The notes under the pieces: generated by a model
The model's input: only the letters and a program-made list of their open reading frames with translations
The model's database searches: none
Told to the model about the DNA's origin: nothing
Made by a program: the position numbers and the translations under genes
Shown here: positions 7,077-54,331 of the stretch, one piece after another
Position numbering within the stretch: the first letter of the stretch is position 1
Layout: every line of letters begins with the position of its first letter
DNA from: Terriglobales bacterium
Lineage (GTDB): Bacteria > Acidobacteriota > Terriglobia > Terriglobales > Acidobacteriaceae
Length of the DNA stretch: 64,000 nucleotides
Reading direction: 5' to 3'
NCBI GenBank assembly: GCA_025462725.1
Contig: JAOAPE010000003.1
Location: forward strand, 372,001 to 436,000

Positions 7077-8612
7077 ATGCGCGATGCGCGCTTTTCTCTT
7101 TCTAGCTTTTCCCTGCTGACAATCTTAGTTTTTGTTTGTTGTGTCGCGGCCAGTGCGCAGGACATTGCTTCGTTCGAGAAGCGAATCACGGTGAAGAAAC
7201 TGGACAACGGCTTGACGCTGATGGTGGTGGAGCGTCCTGAAGCGCCGGTGTTCTCGTTTTTCACGCACGTGAATGCGGGCTCTTCGCAAGACCCGCAGGG
7301 CGAAGCCGGGCTGGCGCATATGTTCGAGCACATGGCTTTCAAGGGCACAGACAAGATCGGGACGAAGAATTTTGCCGAAGAGCGAAAGGTGCTGGAAGAG
7401 ATTGAAGTGGCGTATCGGGCATATGACCTGGAACGCCGGAAAGAAAGCGGCTCTGATCCGAAGAAGGTGGCGGAATTAGAAAAGACTTGGAAGGACTTGG
7501 TCGCGAAGGCGCAAGAGTACGTGAACCTGAATGAGTTCGGTCAGATCATTGAGCGCAATGGTGGGGTTGGATTGAACGCCTTCACCAGCATGGACGAGAC
7601 GGGATACTTCTACTCAATGCCGGCGAATGATCTTGAGCTTTGGGCATATCTGGAGTCGGAGAGATTCGTTCATCCGGTGTTTCGCGAATTCTACAAAGAG
7701 CGTGACGTGGTGGTGGAAGAGCGCAGAATGCGGACTGATAGCCGTCCATTGGGAAGGCTGATTGAGCAGTTGCAGGCGGCGTCATACATGGCGCATCCGT
7801 ATAGGCGTGGAACGGTGGGTTTCTATTCTGAGATCACGGGTGTGACCGCATCCGATGCAGCGGCGTTTTACAAGATTTATTACGTTCCATCGAACATGAC
7901 CATCGCCGTAGTGGGCGACGTGAAAGCGTCGACCGCGATGCCGATGCTGGAGAAATATTTTTCCCAGCTTCCTAAGGCGCCTGCGCCGCCAGAGTTGCGC
8001 ACGGTGGAGCCGCCGCAGATCGGCGAGAAGAGGGTGACGCTGCGTGAAGCGAGCCAGCCTTGGTACATCGAGGCATACCACAGACCGAATTATCGCGATC
8101 CGGATGACGCGGTGTATGACGCGATATCAGACTTAGTTGCGAATGGCAGAACCAGCAGGCTTTATCGCGCGCTGGTGCGTGACCAGAAGATCGCGTTGTT
8201 TGCGGGTGGGCAAGGGGGATTCCCCGGGAATAAATATCCGAGCTTGTATTTGTTCTATGCAGTGCCGACGCAGGGGAAGACTCCGGAGATGCTGGCGGAG
8301 TCGATCCACAAGGAGATCGAAAAGCTGAAGACGACAGACGTGAGCGATGAAGAATTACAAATGGTAAAGACCCGCGCGAAGGCGGACCTGATCCGGGGAT
8401 TGGCTGACAACGAAGGCCTGGCACAACAGTTGGCAACGGCACAGGCGATGTATGGCGACTGGCGTGAATTGTTCCGGCAGGTGGATAGGATCGACAAGGT
8501 GACGAAGGGGGATATCCGCCGAGTGGCTGCGAAGACATTTGTGCCAAGCAACAGGACGGTAGGCGAGATCGAGAACGTGAAGCCAGCAGCTCCGGCGAAA
8601 GGGGGAGAATAA
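7077..8612 (+). CDS. M16-family zinc metallopeptidase (catalytic subunit)
   Basis: A 511-residue pitrilysin/insulinase-type peptidase. A signal peptide ends near residue 28 (CCVAASAQ), so it acts in the periplasm or outer membrane. The inverted zinc motif HMFEH is at residues 81-85, with a further acidic segment (VVVEERRMR) where the third zinc ligand is expected. The C-terminal half is the second, non-catalytic M16 lobe. An insertion of about 50 charged residues follows the active site. The next gene, three bases on, encodes an M16 homologue without the zinc motif; such active/inactive pairs form heterodimers in known M16B enzymes. Start ATG at 7077 is preceded by GGAGG. Confidence 0.92.
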   Translation: MRDARFSLSSFSLLTILVFVCCVAASAQDIASFEKRITVKKLDNGLTLMVVERPEAPVFSFFTHVNAGSSQDPQGEAGLAHMFEHMAFKGTDKIGTKNFAEERKVLEEIEVAYRAYDLERRKESGSDPKKVAELEKTWKDLVAKAQEYVNLNEFGQIIERNGGVGLNAFTSMDETGYFYSMPANDLELWAYLESERFVHPVFREFYKERDVVVEERRMRTDSRPLGRLIEQLQAASYMAHPYRRGTVGFYSEITGVTASDAAAFYKIYYVPSNMTIAVVGDVKASTAMPMLEKYFSQLPKAPAPPELRTVEPPQIGEKRVTLREASQPWYIEAYHRPNYRDPDDAVYDAISDLVANGRTSRLYRALVRDQKIALFAGGQGGFPGNKYPSLYLFYAVPTQGKTPEMLAESIHKEIEKLKTTDVSDEELQMVKTRAKADLIRGLADNEGLAQQLATAQAMYGDWRELFRQVDRIDKVTKGDIRRVAAKTFVPSNRTVGEIENVKPAAPAKGGE

Positions 8613-8614
8613 TC

Positions 8615-10798
8615 ATGCAAAGGAAAATCACTTCCCTTCTCTCATTGATGTTGTTGCTCCTCTGCTCATTAAGCGTGTTCGCGCAGGATTCGCGGGAAAA
8701 GCAACTTGAGCAATCGAAGCCGAAATTGCCGGAATTCAAGCCGCAGGAGCCGAAGCGTATCCAATTGGCGAACGGCATGGTCGTCTTCCTGCAGGAAGAC
8801 CATGAGCTGCCAATCATCGATGGGACGGCCAAAATCCGCGGAGGTTCGCGCGAAATACCTGCGGCAAAGGCGGGGATGATGGGGATCTACGGATCGGCAT
8901 GGCGAACGGGTGGCACGCCGACAAAAACAGGTGACCAATTCGACGACATGCTGGAAGCGCGCGCCGCGAAAGTGGAGACGGGTGGCGGGATCGACTCGAC
9001 AAACATCAGCTTGTCAACACTCAAGGGCGATTTCGACACAGTGTTCGACACCTTCGTTGATCTGCTGAAGAATCCTGAATTCAGGCAAGACAAGGTGGAT
9101 CTGGCGAAGCAGCAGATATCGACGGGAATTTCTCGTCGGAACGACGAAATGGACAGCATCGCGGGACGTGAAGCGGCGAAGCTGGGCTATGGCGCGGAGA
9201 ATCCGTATGCGCGTGTGCCGGAGTATTGGACGGTGGCGGCTGTGTCACGCCAGGACTTGATCGATTGGCACAAGAAGACGGTGCATCCGAACAACATCAT
9301 TCTGGGCCTTGTAGGCGATTTCGATTCCAAGGCGATGGAAGCGAAGCTGCGGAAGACGTTTGAATCTTGGCCAAAGGGCCCTGCGATTGTTCCGGCAAAA
9401 TTGGAATTCAAGCCCGCGGCGCCAGGAACATATTTTGTCGAGAAGGAAGACGTGAACCAGAGCACGATCGAGTTTGTGTCGCAGGGCATCCGACGGGACA
9501 GCCCAGATTATTATGCGACGCGCGTGATGAACGAAGTGTTCGGGGGAGGATTTTCGTCGCGGTTGTTCTCGAGTATCCGATCAAAGCAAGGATTGGCATA
9601 CTCGGTTGGCGGCGGTATTGGAGCGAGCTACGACCATCCGGGATTGTTTTCGCTGAGCATGGGCACGAAGAGTGGAACGACGGCGCAGGCGATCGATGCG
9701 CTCAATAACGAAGTCGCTACGTTGGTGAGGGATCCGGGAAGCGAAGCGGAGATACAGAAAGCGAAGGAAAACATTCTCAACTCGTTCATCTTCGAATTTG
9801 ATTCAAAGGAGAAGATTCTGGGCGAGCGGATGACGTATGAGTTCTACGGGTATCCGGCGGACTTTTTGGAGCGATTCCGCGCGGGCATAGAAAAGGTCAC
9901 ACCGGCTGATGTGGCAGCAGTTGTGAAGAAGTATGTTGATGGCCGGAAGTTCGCGGTGCTGGTGGTAGGCAAGTCGGCTGATTTCGATAGCGCGCTGACG
10001 AAATATGGCAAGGTGACTCCAATCGATATCACCATTCATGAGGAGCCGCCGAGTGCGGGAGGAAGCGCAAAAGCCAGTGGTGGCAGCGACGGCGCGGCGG
10101 TTGCCAGTGGCGCTGCAGCGACGGCCCCGACCGGTTCCAATGCTGAAGGCAAGGCGTTGATGTCAAAGGTAGTAGCGGCGATGGGCGGGATGCAGAAGCT
10201 GTCGGCGGTGAAGGCGATGTCGCAAAAGACAGCGCAGGTGCGACACACACCCCAAGGCGACTTGGAGCTGGAAACGGAATCGGTCGCGGTGTTCCCTGAC
10301 CAATTGCATACGGTGATGCATACGCCGATGGGTGAAATGAGCATGGTTGTGACTCCGCAATCGGCATTCATGGCGGGGGCGCAAGGCGTGCAAGATCTTC
10401 CTCCGACAATGAGAGATAACGCAATCAAAGATTTTAAGCGCGAGCCGGTGTATGTGGCGCAACATGCGGATGATCCGAAGTACAGCTTTACGGCTTCGGG
10501 CACGGAGAAAGTTGGAGACAAATCCGCGGCGGTGTTGGAAGTGAATGCGGATGGGAATCCCACACGTTGGCTGGTTGACAGCCAGACGGGACAAATCCTC
10601 AGAGCGAAGTTCAAGACGAGCGGACAGCAGGGCCCGGTGGAGCGCGAAATTGATTATTCGGATTATCGTCCGGCGGAAGGGCTGACGCTGCCATTTAAGC
10701 GGACTACGAAAGACAATGGCCAGCTTGCGGCAACGACCGAAGTGAAGGAGATCAAGTTGAATCCGGTGGTTGATCTAAAGGTGTTTGCCAAGCCGTAA
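8615..10798 (+). CDS. Inactive M16-family subunit with a C-terminal extension
   Basis: A 727-residue protein. The signal peptide (LLLLCSLSVFAQ) is followed by an M16 domain with the usual NGMVVFLQED start, but the HxxEH site is replaced (GMMGIYGSAW), so it cannot bind zinc in the usual way. The second M16 lobe has the expected GGGFSSRLFSSIRSKQGLAYSV. After residue 480 comes a Gly/Ala/Ser linker and then about 215 residues that look like a beta-rich periplasmic domain of outer-membrane lipoprotein-sorting type (pattern LETESVAVFPDQL...RWLVDSQTGQILRAKF...EIDYSDYR). It probably pairs with the catalytic subunit encoded just upstream. The fold of the extension is inference. Confidence 0.88.
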   Translation: MQRKITSLLSLMLLLLCSLSVFAQDSREKQLEQSKPKLPEFKPQEPKRIQLANGMVVFLQEDHELPIIDGTAKIRGGSREIPAAKAGMMGIYGSAWRTGGTPTKTGDQFDDMLEARAAKVETGGGIDSTNISLSTLKGDFDTVFDTFVDLLKNPEFRQDKVDLAKQQISTGISRRNDEMDSIAGREAAKLGYGAENPYARVPEYWTVAAVSRQDLIDWHKKTVHPNNIILGLVGDFDSKAMEAKLRKTFESWPKGPAIVPAKLEFKPAAPGTYFVEKEDVNQSTIEFVSQGIRRDSPDYYATRVMNEVFGGGFSSRLFSSIRSKQGLAYSVGGGIGASYDHPGLFSLSMGTKSGTTAQAIDALNNEVATLVRDPGSEAEIQKAKENILNSFIFEFDSKEKILGERMTYEFYGYPADFLERFRAGIEKVTPADVAAVVKKYVDGRKFAVLVVGKSADFDSALTKYGKVTPIDITIHEEPPSAGGSAKASGGSDGAAVASGAAATAPTGSNAEGKALMSKVVAAMGGMQKLSAVKAMSQKTAQVRHTPQGDLELETESVAVFPDQLHTVMHTPMGEMSMVVTPQSAFMAGAQGVQDLPPTMRDNAIKDFKREPVYVAQHADDPKYSFTASGTEKVGDKSAAVLEVNADGNPTRWLVDSQTGQILRAKFKTSGQQGPVEREIDYSDYRPAEGLTLPFKRTTKDNGQLAATTEVKEIKLNPVVDLKVFAKP

Positions 10799-10921
10799 AA
10801 ACCCCGTTTCACGTTTCTGTTTCACGAAAAGCAAAAGCTTTTAACCGCTGATCAAAGAAAGATCAAAGACGGATAAAGCTAAAACAAGGGCACGTTTCTA
10901 AACTTTATAGCAGCATTGAAA

Positions 10922-10951
10922 AGGCGCTCTGATTGGAGCGCCTCTTCTTTT
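10922..10951. terminator. Bidirectional intrinsic terminator
   Basis: AGGCGCTC-TGATTG-GAGCGCCT hairpin at 10922-10943, followed on the plus strand by TCTTCTTTT. On the minus strand it lies about 20 bases beyond the lipoprotein stop and is followed by TTTTC. It can end both the M16 operon and the convergent lipoprotein gene. Confidence 0.8.
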
Positions 10952-10964
10952 GCGAGCGTGCGAG

Positions 10965-11636
10965 TTACATTTCCAGTGTCAAAGGATGGGAGAGTTTGAA
11001 GGTCAGGCGTCGCTCTGCGGCGATGGTGACTTCCTTCTTCCCTGTCGCGTAGGCGGCGGTGGTTCCGGCACCGGCACCGGCGGCGCTTCCAATGAGCGCG
11101 CCTTTGGGTCCGCCAGCGAGCGCTCCGATAAGAGCGCCAGCACCGGCGCCTCCGCCGATCCAGGCGAGATTGCGCTTCTTATATGTTCCGCCAGCCATGA
11201 GAATGCTCGAGGTTTCGAGCGGCATCTGCTTGCCATTGATTGCAACTGAAGCGAGCGCGATGCGGAGGTATCCGGCATTGTGCAGACGTCCGGAATGACG
11301 GACGGCGACGACGCGTCCTTTGCCTTCTGCGCCGACCGGAGCGATAGTCTTGCCGTTCACGACGAGCGCTTCAGTGAGGACGAAATCAAAGTTGTCGCCG
11401 GGATTCGCCGCCGCGCTGGAGATGGAACTCTGCAAGCGGACAGAAATCGGCTCGCCAGCGGGAACGACGATGGGCTCGGCTTTTGGCATCAAGCGGCTGA
11501 GCAGTCCCTTTGATTCTTCCTTGGGCTGAACAGGCTGATTCTCAGGCGCTGCGGCCTGGGCGTTCTTTTCAATCGATGATCCGCAGCCGGTGAGGAGCGC
11601 TGCAGCGAGAGTAAGTATGGGCATGAACCTTTTCAT
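10965..11636 (-). CDS. Lipoprotein with VirB10/TrbI-like domain and glycine zipper
   Basis: A 223-residue protein with a lipoprotein signal (AAALLTGC, Cys at residue 18). After a polar linker comes a beta-rich segment of about 85 residues (VPAGEPISVRLQ...NPGDNFDF...VVNGKTI...GAEGKGRVV...INGKQMPL). It is followed by a glycine zipper (GGGAGAGALIGALAGG and repeats) and a final strand (RRLTFKLSHPLTL). The same order is seen in the BON lipoprotein at 53219-54331 and, with a longer Gly-rich part, in the protein at 15901-16926. The domain pattern resembles the VirB10/TrbI beta-barrel. A strong AAGGAG lies 8 bases before the ATG. Function unknown; envelope location likely. Confidence 0.75.
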   Translation of the reverse strand: MKRFMPILTLAAALLTGCGSSIEKNAQAAAPENQPVQPKEESKGLLSRLMPKAEPIVVPAGEPISVRLQSSISSAAANPGDNFDFVLTEALVVNGKTIAPVGAEGKGRVVAVRHSGRLHNAGYLRIALASVAINGKQMPLETSSILMAGGTYKKRNLAWIGGGAGAGALIGALAGGPKGALIGSAAGAGAGTTAAYATGKKEVTIAAERRLTFKLSHPLTLEM

Positions 11637-11857
11637 ATGTGGGCTCCTTTAGGAACTCACGTATGTAGGTGCAGGTGGAGTGCCAAAGAAGGCGCTTTGT
11701 TTTCAGTTTGTTGAGGCGCGCGGGTGTGTAGAAATTACAAAAGCGATTTCGACTTTCAAGTTTCAAGTGTCAAAAGTAAAGCAAAGGCCTGCCCTTTGAC
11801 TTGCTGCGCTTAAGTGAGGATTTGGTGTCGCGCCGCTGGGGCTTGTTTTGCAAACAG

Positions 11858-11882
11858 AAACCCCGCCGTTACTGGCGGGGTT
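11858..11882 (-). terminator. Intrinsic terminator of the BNR gene
   Basis: AACCCCGCC-GTTACT-GGCGGGGTT hairpin, read on the minus strand about 22 bases past the BNR stop and followed by TCTGTTT. Confidence 0.75.
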
Positions 11883-11904
11883 ATTTCGCGCCTCTGGCGC
11901 TTGA

Positions 11905-13956
11905 TCATTGCCGATTCGATGAACGAGAGTTTGAGGATGCGTTGCCACCAGATGATGTCACCGCAGTGGCGGCGGATGGTGCTGCGATCTCCGGTTGGGC
12001 GACGATGCCGTCGAAGGCTGTGGTGGCGAGGAATCGACCGCGGACGGAGCGAACGGAGCGAAGTGTCCAACCGGTGTCGAGGCGTTTCCAACTCTTGCCG
12101 AGGTCAGCGCTGGCGAAGATCTCGGTGGAAGTGTGGGAGATCGCAATCAGGCGCTGGTTTTCGGGATCGAACGCGAGAGATGCGAGTTGATTCACGGGCA
12201 ATCGGCGGAGGTGTTCCCAACTTGCTCCAGCATCAACGCTGCGATATGCGCCTTCGCGAGTGGCAAGAAATATGTCTGACGATCCGTCGGCTTCCGCGAG
12301 CGCAACATCAGCTATGCCGGTAATGTTTTCAGGAGGCGCGGTTGCGTGCCACGTCTCACCTGCGTCGGTTGAAACAAAAAGCGCGCGCCGAGTGATAGCG
12401 ACAGTGAGTTGGGGACTGGACTTCACTGTCAGGAAGTCGGAATGATTTTGAACGGGGCCGCCGTGCCAAGTGCGTCCTTCATCGCGGGTGACGAAGATGC
12501 CGGCGGAAGTTGCAGCAAACCATTTCTCCGGCGTGAACTCGACATCATTGACCCGCGCCGTGAGCTGCGACTTTTCTGTCTTGCGCATAATCACCGGCTT
12601 TGACTTCTTCGTGGCTGCGCGAGTAACCGTCTCGTAGATGTTGATGACGTTGTTGAGCGGCACCCATTGAGGCGTGGAGGCTTTGGTCGGTTGCCGGAAG
12701 GCCACGATTCCGTTGTTCGTCCCGGCGATGAGTTCACCCTTGGGCGATTGGCGAAGAGTGAAGACGTCGCGTCCATTGAGGCCTTCATTCATCTGCTGCC
12801 ATTTTGCTCCGCCATTGTGCGTGACGAAGATGCCGCCGAATTCCTTGTCATTGATAAGTCCGGCGTAGATGGTGGAACTGTCGTCGCGGTCAATGAGCAT
12901 GGATGCGACCTGACGGTGGGCGAATCCGCGATTGGCGACAACAAAGTGCTCGCCGGAATCAGTGCTGGCGAGGACTCCGCTGCGATCGGTGGCAATCATG
13001 ACGTGACTGTGATCTGCGGGATCGACGAGCACATCATTCACGATGATGTTGGCTCCAGTAATCCGCTTCCAGACAGCGCCAGAGTCGGTGGTCTTCCAAA
13101 GTCCTTCAGTAGTACCCGCGTAAACGATGTTGCGATTGACAGGATCCTGTTTCAGCACGCGGGTACGGCGAGCCGAGAACGGCATTCCCTGCACTTTGCG
13201 AAATGACGCGCCGGAAGAATCGCTCTTGTAAATCCCGGAGCAGGCGCTAACGTACATGGTGGACGGCAAGACGGGATCGATGATGATCGAGAAGACATCA
13301 GAGTCATCAATGATGCCGTTCTTCATGTTCTTCCAAGTTTGTCCGCCGTCGGTGGTCTTCCAGGGCAAGTGCCACGTGCCCGCGTAAATGATGTTCGAAT
13401 CGACCGGATCGATGGCGATGGATTGAATGTTGCGAATGTCAGGGTGGTTGGGCGGAGAGATCAAATCCCAGTGATCGCCACCATCGTTGCTGCGAAAGAC
13501 GCCGTCGAGCGCGCCGGCGACGAGGACATCGGGATTGGAAAGGGACATGGAGAATCCACGAATGGATTTTCCGTGCATGCCATTCAGGAATTTCCAATTG
13601 CGTCCACCGTCGGCGCTGCGGTAGATGTCGCCGCCATTACTTTCGACGCTCCATGCCGCGGCATAAACTATTCCGGCGCGGGTGGGGTGAAAGACAACGC
13701 GGTCGAGAACGTAGTCATTGTGATCGCCAAGTTTGGCGTATCGCGCCCAGTTCGCGCCGCCATCGGTCGATTGATAAATCTGTCCGGCACTGGTGCCAAG
13801 AAGAATGCGATTAGGAGAATGCGGATCGCGAGCAAGACTGCGGACATCCCCGCCGTCAGGGCCCAGCGGGGTGAATTGCTGGGCGGTTGCGGAGCATAAA
13901 AGAAACAGAAATGCGAATGCCAGAGATACGAGACGTTTTGTTTGTGCCCGGTTCAT
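11905..13956 (-). CDS. Secreted BNR/Asp-box repeat protein (sortilin/VPS10-like propeller)
   Basis: A 683-residue protein. The ATG at 13956 is chosen because AAGGTGG lies just upstream and a signal peptide follows directly (AFLFLLCSATAQQ). The mature part holds about ten Asp-box repeats of the S-x-D-x-G-x-x-W type (STDGGANW, SADGGRNW, SNDGGDHW, TTDGGQTW, STDAGETW, SVDAGASW), consistent with one or two large beta-propellers. Such proteins are widespread in Acidobacteriota; some relatives are glycosidases, many have no known activity. The last 40 residues are Ala/Ser/Asn-rich and probably unstructured. It stands alone between two terminators. It belongs to the same broad class as the partial gene at the left edge, but the two are not obvious duplicates. 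Confidence 0.87.
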   Translation of the reverse strand: MNRAQTKRLVSLAFAFLFLLCSATAQQFTPLGPDGGDVRSLARDPHSPNRILLGTSAGQIYQSTDGGANWARYAKLGDHNDYVLDRVVFHPTRAGIVYAAAWSVESNGGDIYRSADGGRNWKFLNGMHGKSIRGFSMSLSNPDVLVAGALDGVFRSNDGGDHWDLISPPNHPDIRNIQSIAIDPVDSNIIYAGTWHLPWKTTDGGQTWKNMKNGIIDDSDVFSIIIDPVLPSTMYVSACSGIYKSDSSGASFRKVQGMPFSARRTRVLKQDPVNRNIVYAGTTEGLWKTTDSGAVWKRITGANIIVNDVLVDPADHSHVMIATDRSGVLASTDSGEHFVVANRGFAHRQVASMLIDRDDSSTIYAGLINDKEFGGIFVTHNGGAKWQQMNEGLNGRDVFTLRQSPKGELIAGTNNGIVAFRQPTKASTPQWVPLNNVINIYETVTRAATKKSKPVIMRKTEKSQLTARVNDVEFTPEKWFAATSAGIFVTRDEGRTWHGGPVQNHSDFLTVKSSPQLTVAITRRALFVSTDAGETWHATAPPENITGIADVALAEADGSSDIFLATREGAYRSVDAGASWEHLRRLPVNQLASLAFDPENQRLIAISHTSTEIFASADLGKSWKRLDTGWTLRSVRSVRGRFLATTAFDGIVAQPEIAAPSAATAVTSSGGNASSNSRSSNRQ

Positions 13957-14157
13957 GTGTCCACCTTCTGGCCAGAAGAGAAAGTAAATCATGAGGGTAG
14001 TTGCAGACCATTCACAAGAAACCTTAGTGAGTCTGACTCCTCATTCGATGCAAGTTCGCTTGAGGAGAGAGTGCCTCAAGAGGGTTCTGGTACACAAGTT
14101 ACAAAAGGGCGTGGTCTAAAAACAGTTTGTATTTTCAAGTATCTAGTTTCAAAGACA

Positions 14158-14193
14158 AAGGCCGGCAGGGCAAAACACCCTACCGGCCTTTTT
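14158..14193. terminator. Intrinsic terminator after the OmpA-like gene
   Basis: A 13-base stem with one mismatch (AAGGCCGGCAGGG / CCCTACCGGCCTT, loop CAAAACA) lies 15 bases beyond the OmpA-like stop on the minus strand. It is flanked by T-rich sequence on both sides, so it could work in either direction. Confidence 0.8.
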
Positions 14194-14205
14194 CGTTATG
14201 AGTTG

Positions 14206-15762
14206 CTATTTCTTTGCTGCAGGCGCTTTTTTCGCAGCGGCTTTCTTCGGAGCTGCGTGTTTGGTGGCGGTGGGTTTCACTTTGTCGCTGACCACCGTAG
14301 TTCCCTCACCCTTGAAGGTGGCTCCTGAAGGCACCAACCAGATCTCTGTGTTCATGGCGGTACCGCTGCCAGAACGGACTTCGATGCGGCTGGCGTCGAT
14401 GCCCTTTTCAGAAACGAGGTAAGCCTTTGCGTTCACGGCGCGTTGTGCTGCAAGTTTCTTTGCGCCCGTTTCTTTCGCATCGGCGTTGCCAACGAGAACG
14501 GCTTTGGCATCTGCATCGCGCTGCAAGCGAAGAGCGACTTCATCGAGAATGGCCTTGGCGGCGTTGTCGACCCGCGGGCTGTTCTTCTTGAAAGCGATCT
14601 CATTGAGCTTGCTGGCTTCCGGCGCCGGTGGCGGCGGAGGTGGCGGAGGCGGAGCTTCGACAGTCACGCTAGTGGATGCTGAGGCGGACAGATTGCGGTC
14701 GTCCGTCACAGTTCCCTGCACGCTGATAGGGCCGGGTTGAGCGCCAGTGGTGTTCAAGGTTGCGGTGTTGCCGGTTCCGGAAACAGTTCCAGCGCTGGCA
14801 GTGTAGTTGTAGGTGAGGTTACGGCCGTCCGGGCTGTTGCCGTTGCAGGTGATCTGCGAGCTGCCGTTGGGCTGAACTGTTGTGGGATTCGCCGAGCAAG
14901 TGATTGTCGGCGGGCGCGGCTGCTTCACGGTGAAGCTGGCGGTGCAGTCGGCCATTCCCTTTTTGCCGTCGGTGACACTGGACTTCACAGCATAAGAACC
15001 GGGCTGCAAGCCTTTGGTGTCAATGTTGGCGGTGGCGCTGGTGCTGGAAACCTTTACGCCAGTACCGGTCCATGCATAAGCAAGAGTGCGCTTCGGATTG
15101 AAGTTGGAAGGAGTAGCTGTCGCGGTGACCGGCTCGCCTTCGAAAACTTCGGTGGGGTTCACGCTGCAAGCTGCGCTGGGAGGAACAGGAGGAGGCCCGA
15201 TGGTGCCGAACTTGAAGACAAGTCCGCCGGCAATCCTTGCACCCGCGAATTCAGACTTTATGACAGCGCCGCCAACACCGCCGTTGTATCGGCCGTATTG
15301 AAGGTCAGCCTGAATCAAGCGGATATCTACGCGCCGTGAGGCGCCTACATCAAGTCCGCCACCAAAGGTGAGTCCGATGTTGTAGTTGGTATTCAAATTC
15401 GGCGGCGAGAGCGCATACATGCCAACCAGAAAATGTGCGAAGGGCGAAATGTGCTCGGAGGGAAAACGCAAAGAAGGACCGATTTGCAAGGTCCCTAGCT
15501 GGGTGTTAGTGCCGAAATGCGCACCCGAATCGAGTGTGAGTCCCGCGTAGCGGTTAAGCCAGTACGTGGAAGCGACGGTGAATCCTTTTGGCAAGTTACT
15601 GATATTGGCGAAGCCATGGCTACCAGGATCGGCCCATGCGTATCCGGCAAAGATGTCGACCTTTGATGGCTGCTGTTCCTGAGCAACTGCGGACGTGGCG
15701 AAAAGAGCGAGGGCCAGAAGTCCCAAAACACAAACGAAGAGTTTCAAATTACGAAGTGACAT
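14206..15762 (-). CDS. OmpA-family outer-membrane protein with Ig-like repeats
   Basis: A 518-residue protein: signal peptide (residues 1-27, ATSAVAQ), an N-terminal eight-strand-like barrel (about 33-190, e.g. VDIFAGYAWADP, GLTFGGGLDVGASRRVDIRL), two PKD/Ig-like domains (CSVNPTEVFEGEPVTATA and CSANPTTVQPNGSSQITC), a Pro-rich hinge (PPPPPPPPP), then an OmpA/MotB-type peptidoglycan-binding domain (SPRVDNAAKAILDEVA, VGNADAKETGAKKLAAQRA) and a Lys/Ala-rich tail. The C-terminal domain probably ties the outer membrane to peptidoglycan. GGAGGAA lies before the ATG. It is flanked by terminators, so it is a single-gene unit. Confidence 0.88.
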   Translation of the reverse strand: MSLRNLKLFVCVLGLLALALFATSAVAQEQQPSKVDIFAGYAWADPGSHGFANISNLPKGFTVASTYWLNRYAGLTLDSGAHFGTNTQLGTLQIGPSLRFPSEHISPFAHFLVGMYALSPPNLNTNYNIGLTFGGGLDVGASRRVDIRLIQADLQYGRYNGGVGGAVIKSEFAGARIAGGLVFKFGTIGPPPVPPSAACSVNPTEVFEGEPVTATATPSNFNPKRTLAYAWTGTGVKVSSTSATANIDTKGLQPGSYAVKSSVTDGKKGMADCTASFTVKQPRPPTITCSANPTTVQPNGSSQITCNGNSPDGRNLTYNYTASAGTVSGTGNTATLNTTGAQPGPISVQGTVTDDRNLSASASTSVTVEAPPPPPPPPPAPEASKLNEIAFKKNSPRVDNAAKAILDEVALRLQRDADAKAVLVGNADAKETGAKKLAAQRAVNAKAYLVSEKGIDASRIEVRSGSGTAMNTEIWLVPSGATFKGEGTTVVSDKVKPTATKHAAPKKAAAKKAPAAKK

Positions 15763-15827
15763 GCGTGATTCCTCCGAAGCTGTGACGCAACTAGAGCAAA
15801 AACTCAGTGACGTTTAGAAATAAGAAT

Positions 15828-15856
15828 ACGGACGGCATAGAACTCTTGCCGTCCGT
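15828..15856 (-). terminator. Hairpin after the Gly/Ser-rich envelope gene
   Basis: ACGGACGGCA-TAGAACTCT-TGCCGTCCGT, a 10-base perfect stem located 45 bases past the stop on the minus strand and followed by ATTCTTATTTCT. The T-run is weak. Confidence 0.6.
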
Positions 15857-15900
15857 AGGATTGTACAGTAAATAGCTTAGAACAGTCTAAGCGGAATAGC

Positions 15901-16926
15901 TTACTGCTGTGTCTGTGCGGCTTGTCCCGTTACTTTCAAAACCATCTGGCTTCCGCTATCGAGGCGTACGTTCTTGCCTGCGGAAGTAATGACGGAACCA
16001 GCGGCATCGCCTGACGTAGCGTTGTCGAGTTTCAAGCCTTTCAAACCGACGACTCCGCTACTGGTGGAACTGAGAACACCAGTTGCGCCAGCGGCTGTGG
16101 AACCAACGCGGCCGGCTGCCCCCGTGGCGGCGCCGACTGTGTTGCCGGCATGTCCTGCAGTGCTGCCAACAGCATTTCCAGCGGTTCCGGCAACACCGCC
16201 TGCGGTGCTACCGACTGATCCTGCTGTGCCTGCAACGCCGCCTACGGTGGAACCTGCGCCGCCGAGCAATCCACCACCGCCTGCACTGCCGCCACCGGAA
16301 GCGCCAACGTTTCCTGCTCCGCTACCGGTGGCCATTGTGTCATCTCCCATGGAAGTTGCGGCTGCAACTGCCGGGGCGGCGAGCGCCTGAATGCCGGCTT
16401 GCATGGGGATGGACTGTCCGTTCTTCAAGATGGCCTTATCGAAGACGATGCCAAGAGCGGATTCAGATTCACCGTTGGCTTTGGCTTTCGCCTGGGTGAC
16501 GTGTCCGATCAACTTGGTGTTGCGCGGGATGATGACCTTGCCGTTTTGCACGACGTCCTGCGCTGTGCGGGCAGTAACCTCGTCGCCCTGTTTTGCTTTC
16601 TTGGAATCCACCCCTTTGTTAAGGACGGCGGGAATCGCAACGCCCGAAGGGATGCTGTCTGTCCCAAGGGAGGCGCTGGAATCGTTAGAGGCTGAGCCGG
16701 AGGTGCTGGCACCGGTGCTCTTGCCGGATTTGCCGCTTCGCGTCGCATTGGTGCTATTAGAGGCGTTGGCGGAATTGCTGGTGTTGGCCTTTGCTCCGCT
16801 CCTTGACGCGTCGACCGAGGTCTGCGATGAAGCAGAGCCCGAAGTCTGTGTGCTTGCCGATGTCTGCGCGGCTGCTGTCGCCAACAGCAGACTTGACGCA
16901 AGTAATCCTGAAACAACAATTTTCAT
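15901..16926 (-). CDS. Secreted Ser/Gly-rich protein with a VirB10/TrbI-like domain
   Basis: A 341-residue protein with a signal peptide (LLASSLLLATAAAQ) and a Ser/Thr/Asn-rich low-complexity stretch (about 22-90). A beta-rich domain (about 95-175) follows: GVAIPAVLNKGVDSKKAKQGDE, NGKVIIPRNTKLIGHV, ILKNGQSIPM. Then come about 120 residues of Gly/Ala/Ser repeats (VGGVAGTAGSVGSTAGGVAG) and a last strand (GKNVRLDSGSQMVLKV). The domain and the last strand align by eye with the proteins at 10965-11636 and 53219-54331. The IPAVL...GD...IPRNTKLIG pattern is what made me think of VirB10/TrbI. No type IV secretion genes are nearby. AGGAGGAA precedes the ATG. Function unknown; probably envelope or surface. 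Confidence 0.7.
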   Translation of the reverse strand: MKIVVSGLLASSLLLATAAAQTSASTQTSGSASSQTSVDASRSGAKANTSNSANASNSTNATRSGKSGKSTGASTSGSASNDSSASLGTDSIPSGVAIPAVLNKGVDSKKAKQGDEVTARTAQDVVQNGKVIIPRNTKLIGHVTQAKAKANGESESALGIVFDKAILKNGQSIPMQAGIQALAAPAVAAATSMGDDTMATGSGAGNVGASGGGSAGGGGLLGGAGSTVGGVAGTAGSVGSTAGGVAGTAGNAVGSTAGHAGNTVGAATGAAGRVGSTAAGATGVLSSTSSGVVGLKGLKLDNATSGDAAGSVITSAGKNVRLDSGSQMVLKVTGQAAQTQQ

Positions 16927-53218: not shown

Positions 53219-54331
53219 ATGAAAAACATGAGTAGCAGTTCCCTTTTGGCGTTCCTTGTGGCGATTTCCTGCATGCTATCCGGGGGTTGCAACAAGAGTG
53301 CGAATGCACCAGCCCGCGCGGATGCGCAGGTGGCAACGGATGTCCAAGCCAAGATCAACTCGGACTCGAATGTGCCGACTAAGGCCATCACCGTAAACGC
53401 GAATAATGGCGTTGTGACACTGAGCGGAGCGGTGGGTTCAGAGATGGAGCGGCAAGCTGCTTCGAATGATGCTGCTCAAGTGGATGGCGTAAAGACTGTC
53501 GTGAACAACCTGACTGCGACCTCGGCTTCTAATATGCCCGCTTCAGATGCGATTGGCAGTTCAGCAGCGACGAATAATCAGGCGCCTAGCAGCAACCGCG
53601 AGCCGAGTTCAGCCATGCGTGCGAGCACAAGCAAAGGGAATCGAGTGCGGACAGCGCCGATGCATGCAGCACCCGCGGCTGCCGCCGCGAATTCCAGCGC
53701 GAACACATTGGCTGCGAATCGCGAACCATCAAGCGCGCTAGCTCCGGCAACCCCGGCAGTCACAACGATCAACGTTCCTTCGGGAACGTCGTTCAGCGTA
53801 CGGACGATTGATGCATTGTCATCGGAGAAGGCGCAAGCGGGAGACACATTCACGGCCACGCTGGATACTCCGATTGACGTTAATGGTCAGGTAGTGATCC
53901 CCGCGAACTCTGACGTGCAAGGAAAAGTTGTTGAGGCAAAGAATGCGAGCAAATTCACAGGATCGTCACAACTCACATTGGAATTGACGAAGGTATCGTT
54001 CAACGGGAAGTCGTACCGGATTAAAACAGACCAGTGGGCCCGCACCGGCACCGCGCGAGGCAAGAACACTGCCGCCAAAGTAGGCGGAGGCGCGGCGTTG
54101 GGAGCAATCATCGGCGGGATCGCGGGTGGCGGCAAGGGAGCGGCGATCGGAGCAGGAGTGGGCGCAGGCGCGGGTACGGGGGCACAGGCCATTACTCATG
54201 GCGAACAGATCGTGCTGAATCCGGAGACGTTGTTAACGTTTCAGTTGAAGAGTCCGGTCACGGTGACGCCGTCTTCTTCGATGCAGAATCCAAATCGCAA
54301 ACGTTTGGGCTCGGGCGACAGCAACCAGTAA
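53219..54331 (+). CDS. Lipoprotein with BON domain, VirB10/TrbI-like domain and glycine zipper
   Basis: A 370-residue protein. The hydrophobic N-terminus ends in CMLSGGC, a fair lipobox. Residues 38-100 form a BON domain (VQAKINSDSNVPTKAITVNA, NGVVTLSGAV, VNNLT), which binds membranes or phospholipid. A Ser/Ala/Asn-rich linker with a duplicated SNREPSSA/ANREPSSALA segment follows. Then come the shared beta domain (VPSGTSFSVRTIDAL, QAGDTFTA, NGQVVIPANSDVQGKVVEA), a glycine zipper (GGGAALGAIIGGIAGGGKG) and the last strand (LLTFQLKSPVTV). It is the longest of three such paralogues in the window. The ATG has AAGGAGC upstream. Confidence 0.8.
   Translation: MKNMSSSSLLAFLVAISCMLSGGCNKSANAPARADAQVATDVQAKINSDSNVPTKAITVNANNGVVTLSGAVGSEMERQAASNDAAQVDGVKTVVNNLTATSASNMPASDAIGSSAATNNQAPSSNREPSSAMRASTSKGNRVRTAPMHAAPAAAAANSSANTLAANREPSSALAPATPAVTTINVPSGTSFSVRTIDALSSEKAQAGDTFTATLDTPIDVNGQVVIPANSDVQGKVVEAKNASKFTGSSQLTLELTKVSFNGKSYRIKTDQWARTGTARGKNTAAKVGGGAALGAIIGGIAGGGKGAAIGAGVGAGAGTGAQAITHGEQIVLNPETLLTFQLKSPVTVTPSSSMQNPNRKRLGSGDSNQ

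Follow-up and report, generated by a model that had tools for sequence, protein, structure and literature searches.

In type IV secretion systems (T4SS), VirB10/TrbI proteins form a 14–17-fold ring in the outer membrane, and VirB10 is usually regarded as a dedicated part of these systems. A true VirB10 carries an N-terminal cytoplasmic segment and an inner-membrane helix, and is accompanied by its partners VirB9 and VirB4. Glycine-zipper lipoproteins of the YMGG/YiaD and Rick_17kDa types carry a zipper motif with GxxxG spacing and are not known to contain a VirB10-like beta domain. According to PMC6536674, the outer-membrane pore of VirB10 consists of two antenna helices, an insertion preceding the end of the C-terminal domain (CTD). 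Furthermore, four cyanobacterial TrbI-like proteins, inferred to be ancestral to their phylum, were treated as conjugation proteins in a 2011 study (PMC3141437); in their TrbI-like label and in being placed, in several copies, at the base of a phylum, they recall, by description, the family analysed below.

Herein, a 64,000-nucleotide stretch of DNA from a Terriglobales bacterium (the window) was analysed, in which three open reading frames (ORFs), designated A, B and C, encode proteins that combine a VirB10-CTD-like beta domain with a signal peptide or lipobox.

Layout and kinship of the three proteins

The ORF list places A, B and C at the coordinates given in an earlier note on this DNA, and the layout proposed there was largely borne out: a signal or lipobox, a variable N-terminal part, a shared beta domain, a glycine zipper and a final strand. 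Protein A (223 aa; 10965..11636, minus strand, as are all its features) opens with a signal peptide (residues 1–18; 11583..11636) whose LTGC motif we take to be a lipobox. After a short linker come the beta domain (residues 55–151; 11184..11474), a putative glycine-zipper hairpin that occupies the antenna position of VirB10 (residues 152–199; 11040..11183) and a final strand region packing back onto the beta domain (residues 204–222; 10971..11027). Protein B (341 aa; 15901..16926, likewise minus strand throughout) has a signal peptide, a Ser/Asn/Thr-rich low-complexity linker (residues 21–90; 16657..16866), the beta domain (residues 91–184; 16375..16656) and closing strands (residues 298–332; 15931..16035). 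The Gly-rich zipper claimed for all three proteins is canonical in A and C, whereas B has instead a long Gly/Ala/Ser/Thr-rich insert at the antenna position (residues 185–295; 16042..16374), which is common to its orthologues. Protein C (370 aa; 53219..54331, plus strand throughout) carries, by inspection, a lipobox-like LSGGC in its signal, followed by a BON domain (residues 35–100; 53321..53518; PF04972, E 3.2e-15), a linker and the beta domain (residues 184–274; 53768..54040), matched at E 1.9e-44 by a domain HMM of which C is itself a training row. Its glycine zipper (residues 282–324; 54062..54190) matches PF13441 at a sub-threshold E of 0.00054, and its final strand (residues 328–349; 54200..54265) was placed by alignment.

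The interval 10965–16926, given for A and B in the earlier note, spans unrelated genes, since a BNR/sortilin-like ORF (11905–13992) and an OmpA/PKD ORF (14206–15762), both non-members by Pfam, lie between A and B. As a side observation, the order OmpA/PKD, BNR/sortilin-like, A, an M16-type peptidase ORF (8615–10798) and a further ORF (7077–8612), spanning 7077–15762, is conserved in a Candidatus Angelobacter contig (L018) at 75–82% identity per gene.

By sequence comparison, the similarity among the three proteins exceeds chance, A and C being clear paralogues and B more distant. A and C share 36% identity over 183 aa (BLASTP, E 9e-14); C and B are matched at E 1e-7, and A and B at only E 0.002. 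B nevertheless belongs firmly in the family, because a profile of its orthologues aligns with the A/C family at E 1.4e-17 (hhalign), with a score of 118.0 against 17.8 for the best of 100 column shuffles. The common origin assumed in the earlier note is thus upheld by both the pairwise and the profile comparisons. The shared beta domain comprises about 95 residues with the alignment pattern IP.GT...V.L....SS..A..GD.F.A.L...V.VNGK.VIP.G....G.V. In the 17-row family alignment, zipper glycines account for seven of the nine invariant columns, and 25 of 31 members have the zipper motif. One way to read this motif is as a pair of largely uncharged segments, each about 19 residues long, with a loop between them that is often GGGKG; in canonical members, the best-scoring zipper 19-mers reach a hydropathy of about 1.3–1.8, a modest value.

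Homology to the VirB10/TrbI C-terminal domain

Searches of Pfam and NCBIfam left the shared domain of A, B and C unnamed: no more than a TrbI match below threshold came up for B, and zipper matches, likewise below threshold, for A and C. Residues 92–262 of B match TrbI (PF03743) at 19.3 bits, below the gathering score of 35; in the Pfam search, a TrbI match was not listed for A or C, and conjugative-transposon TraM (PF12508) was listed for none of the three. When the PDB was searched by sequence, the family profile matched no VirB10, and matches such as prion and flagellin chains were set aside as low-complexity; an antibody chain matched by B alone was taken as chance. Given these sub-threshold scores and the PDB sequence search without VirB10, the link to VirB10 is reached only via profile–profile and fold comparison.

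For the profile–profile comparison, the family profile was built from 27 of 31 rows, leaving out B (L004), L015, L016 and L034; the duplicate views L001, L002 and L017 had been skipped when the alignment was built, as had one truncated view of L014. The VirB10/TrbI C-terminal profile comprised 25 of 30 loci fetched from the same class, with L046, L048, L052, L057 and L064 dropped. In a single hhalign comparison, the two profiles matched with Prob 81.9 and E 1.1e-5, family columns 3–173 being collinear with TrbI columns 11–196 from the first through the last strand. The score of 40.7 exceeded that of the best of 100 column shuffles (19.3) and of the reversed alignment (12.1), and the beta domain alone scored 30.0 against the TrbI profile. 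A profile of B and 11 relatives gave Prob 95.9 and E 5.4e-9 across the beta domain, with a score of 65.3 and shuffles at or below 19.8. The resemblance to VirB10/TrbI, first suspected from the domain pattern, was therefore recovered by HMM–HMM comparison for the A/C type and for the B orthologues alike.

Predicted structures lead to the same domain. A was modelled with AlphaFold2 over residues 45–223 from a 17-row alignment (mean pLDDT 72.4); pLDDT is about 90 across most of the beta domain, 85–89 in the closing strands, which are collinear by hhalign with the TrbI C-terminal strand, and below 50 in the zipper. All 23 Foldseek matches in the PDB with E ≤9.1e-3 are VirB10-family CTDs, the next match having E 0.21; they comprise X. 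citri VirB10, CagY, TrwE, ComB10, pKM101 TraF, F TraB and DotG. For 14 VirB10-family entries, VIA-align gave Z 8.0–12.3 over 96–122 residues, after which Z fell to 3.7 for the following fold. The model of B (residues 85–341, 18 rows; mean pLDDT 62.8) is confident in the beta domain (77–97 by ten-residue block) and in the last strand; it is not independent of that of A, because its alignment is shared with A's family. Its closing strands were assigned at 214–218, 227–231 and 243–248 in model numbering, with pLDDT of 86–91 only over about the last 20 residues, and its insert, like the zipper of A, was modelled below 50. VIA-align again placed 14 VirB10-family entries first (Z 8.3–12.7, next fold Z 3.7), and Foldseek agreed, bearing in mind that the lists of both programs can miss families. 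For A and B alike, VirB10-family CTDs thus head the list and stand well clear of whatever fold follows; the fold models cover these two proteins, and C is included through its row in the alignments and its identity to A.

Altogether, homology of the shared domain to the VirB10/TrbI CTD is well supported. In its beta fold, in the order of its strands and in the C-terminal strand that closes the fold, the family matches the CTDs of VirB10, TrbI, TraF, TrwE, ComB10, CagY and DotG, and its putative membrane element is likewise placed before the last strand. At this point, where VirB10 has its antenna helices, the family has a glycine zipper or Gly-rich stretch inserted. The earlier note had spoken of a VirB10/TrbI outer-membrane barrel, a term that does not hold, as two antenna helices, and no beta barrel, form the VirB10 pore in the description given in PMC6536674. 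A second difference concerns the N-terminus, where A, B and C have, by inspection, a cleavable-type signal or lipobox in place of the cytoplasmic segment and inner-membrane helix of true VirB10.

Possible roles at the outer membrane

Given the export signal and the absent inner-membrane helix, the simplest reading is a ring domain in the periplasm that hairpins of the zipper would hold in the outer membrane. We favour, with a probability of roughly 0.6, the view that A, B and C represent a T4SS-independent exported envelope family with a core homologous to the VirB10 O-layer CTD, which most likely serves as an outer-membrane anchoring scaffold, while some paralogues may conduct. Under this reading, the signal peptide or lipobox would deliver the protein to the outer membrane, into which the zipper hairpin would insert. 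GxxxG packing between copies could then produce a homo-oligomeric ring, as the VirB10 antenna does, without VirB7/VirB9 or an inner-membrane anchor. Whether it is a BON domain, a low-complexity linker or a lectin-like or Sm-like domain, the variable N-terminal part might serve as the module that the paralogue in question holds at the inner face of the membrane.

The same homologous fold might also belong to monomeric or loosely associated outer-membrane lipoproteins, in which the zipper would act as a membrane stabiliser of the SlyB/YiaD type with no ring or pore, an explanation that we regard as possible, if doubtful. The zipper does resemble the Pfam Gly-zipper_YMGG/Omp families, with sub-threshold scores: against PF13441 and PF13488 (cut-offs 28.9 and 25 bits), A reaches 19.9 and 19.3 bits and C 20.0 and 11.2 bits. 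It also resembles that of an OmpA-family protein, as the PDB search with the family profile matched glycine-zipper stretches (6x65 and others, E 2.3e-5). Partner subunits encoded nearby were not found either: by eye, the surroundings of the source-genome paralogues are varied and show no conserved partner gene, and no shared envelope partner appeared near B orthologues in seven fetched regions. However, the PDB matches of weight are all ring-forming subunits, presumably so going by entry titles, and tightly packed helices, be it in a single chain or across chains, would fit the conserved GxxxG spacing.

Outer-membrane channels, in which the zipper hairpins would form a pore for solutes or proteins and paralogues would differ in substrate, appear unlikely. 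The many paralogues per genome would fit such a role, as would the pore-making antenna of VirB10 in the description of PMC6536674. Nevertheless, closely packed glycine-zipper helices need leave no lumen, transport genes were not seen alongside (by eye), and the N-terminal modules resemble binding domains. The preference for a scaffold over a channel is a matter of judgement.

A convergent small beta barrel with no homology to VirB10 might be suspected from the Pfam results for TrbI, and was rejected as highly improbable in view of the two profile–profile tests with shuffle controls and the drop in the fold search from Z 8 to 3.7.

Paralogues and distribution relative to secretion genes

The source genome (4.33 Mb, 91 contigs, completeness 100) was searched with a three-row alignment, which gave 15 matches at E ≤1 in 14 distinct ORFs, three of them within the window. 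A beta-domain HMM recovers all 14 at E ≤1.6e-5, its three training rows included. Their N-terminal parts differ: BON is present in C and L006, DUF3011 with repeats in L009 (Pfam), and, by eye, the relatives L025, L027, L019 and L028 have a stretch recalling the Sm-like fold. A 692-aa paralogue (L101:5786-7864) has several near-identical repeats ahead of DUF3011 and the VirB10-like domain; the Pfam names of the repeats are mixed and doubtful.

Some paralogues come closer to named secretion families. L010 reaches 24.2 bits against Pfam TrbI, which is sub-threshold, and L014:1498-2247 (minus strand) passes the Pfam cut-off for conjugative-transposon TraM (34 versus 25.1 bits), a protein that we take to be the Bacteroides counterpart of VirB10. 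Conjugative-transposon genes, in contrast, were not recognised by eye around L014. Among the side observations, L015 (L096:3138-4472) contains two tandem VirB10-like domains, the second stronger, without a canonical zipper, and reaches 32.1 bits for TrbI, just below the cut-off. Furthermore, L010, L014 and L011 lie within about 5.5 kb (L097:6142-11571), with the tandem-domain paralogue about 16 kb off; the genome with this loose cluster gave no VirB4 match. In four of the seven fetched B-orthologue regions (L086, L087, L089 and L090), though not in the window, the orthologue lies close to an ORF that by eye is DNA polymerase I-like.

Whereas true VirB10 has its VirB9 and VirB4 partners, the source genome, with its many paralogues, yielded no above-cut-off TrbI, no VirB9/CagX (PF03524) and no VirB4 (PF03135) match, Pfam models being able to miss divergent components. 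The statement that no type IV secretion genes are near, made for the window, thus extends genome-wide for VirB9, VirB4 and above-threshold TrbI. Across the class, a 17-row profile found the family in all 151 genomes drawn, with 1–19 matches each (median 8, mean 8.6), counted as profile matches as such, some few of which may owe their score chiefly to the zipper; in the weakest genome, the best match still has E 3.2e-17. VirB4 was matched in 31 of 151 genomes in a class draw of the same size (the same genomes as far as listed), which leaves about 120 of 151 class genomes with the family and without a VirB4 match. TrbI exceeded the cut-off in 68 of 200 class genomes, some of the matches being members of stand-alone size that pass it narrowly. 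In a phylum draw, the family was found in 97 of 149 genomes, 15 of which belong to the window's own taxonomic family; beyond the class, the figure is 82 of 134.

A tree built from 29 stand-alone rows and 25 rows from T4SS parts the two groups by one branch with support of 100/99; it is unrooted, leaves out L034 and L016, and draws its T4SS rows all from the window's class. Its inner order is unsure because of long branches and narrow sampling. Decay from type IV secretion loci, conceivable in a class where T4SS VirB10 homologues do occur, was rejected as the least probable explanation of all, since the family is multi-copy and intact with its own signal peptides in every sampled class genome, the tree separates it from the T4SS rows, and 120 of 151 genomes gave no VirB4 match.

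With a homologue in every class genome sampled, and most of these genomes without VirB4, the label "TrbI-like" cannot be read as conjugation. These results suggest that the ring part also exists widely on its own, as a structural unit of the cell envelope. The earlier note had supposed a family not yet described; the domain itself is known, whereas for its T4SS-free, zipper-bearing, multi-copy form no description was found in searches of the open-licence literature. A bolder and less probable reading is that Acidobacteriota universally possess multi-copy ring assemblies in the outer membrane, in which the VirB10 O-layer domain bears antennae made of glycine zippers and works apart from any secretion machine; the T4SS outer-membrane ring would then be a specialised descendant of a general module for building the envelope that predates it. 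The family is also relevant to how the T4SS core complex arose, and its small, tractable proteins lend themselves to work on outer-membrane entry by helices instead of beta barrels.

Relatives were also sought on mobile elements. None was present among 600 pattern matches in viral contigs, and none in phages at E 1e-3. Outside the phylum, partial relatives occur on Erythrobacter and Halioglobus plasmids, and a Persicobacter (Bacteroidota) plasmid record of 1.6 Mb encodes an unannotated complete member (L095:2749-3510) with lipobox, beta domain, zipper and final strand.
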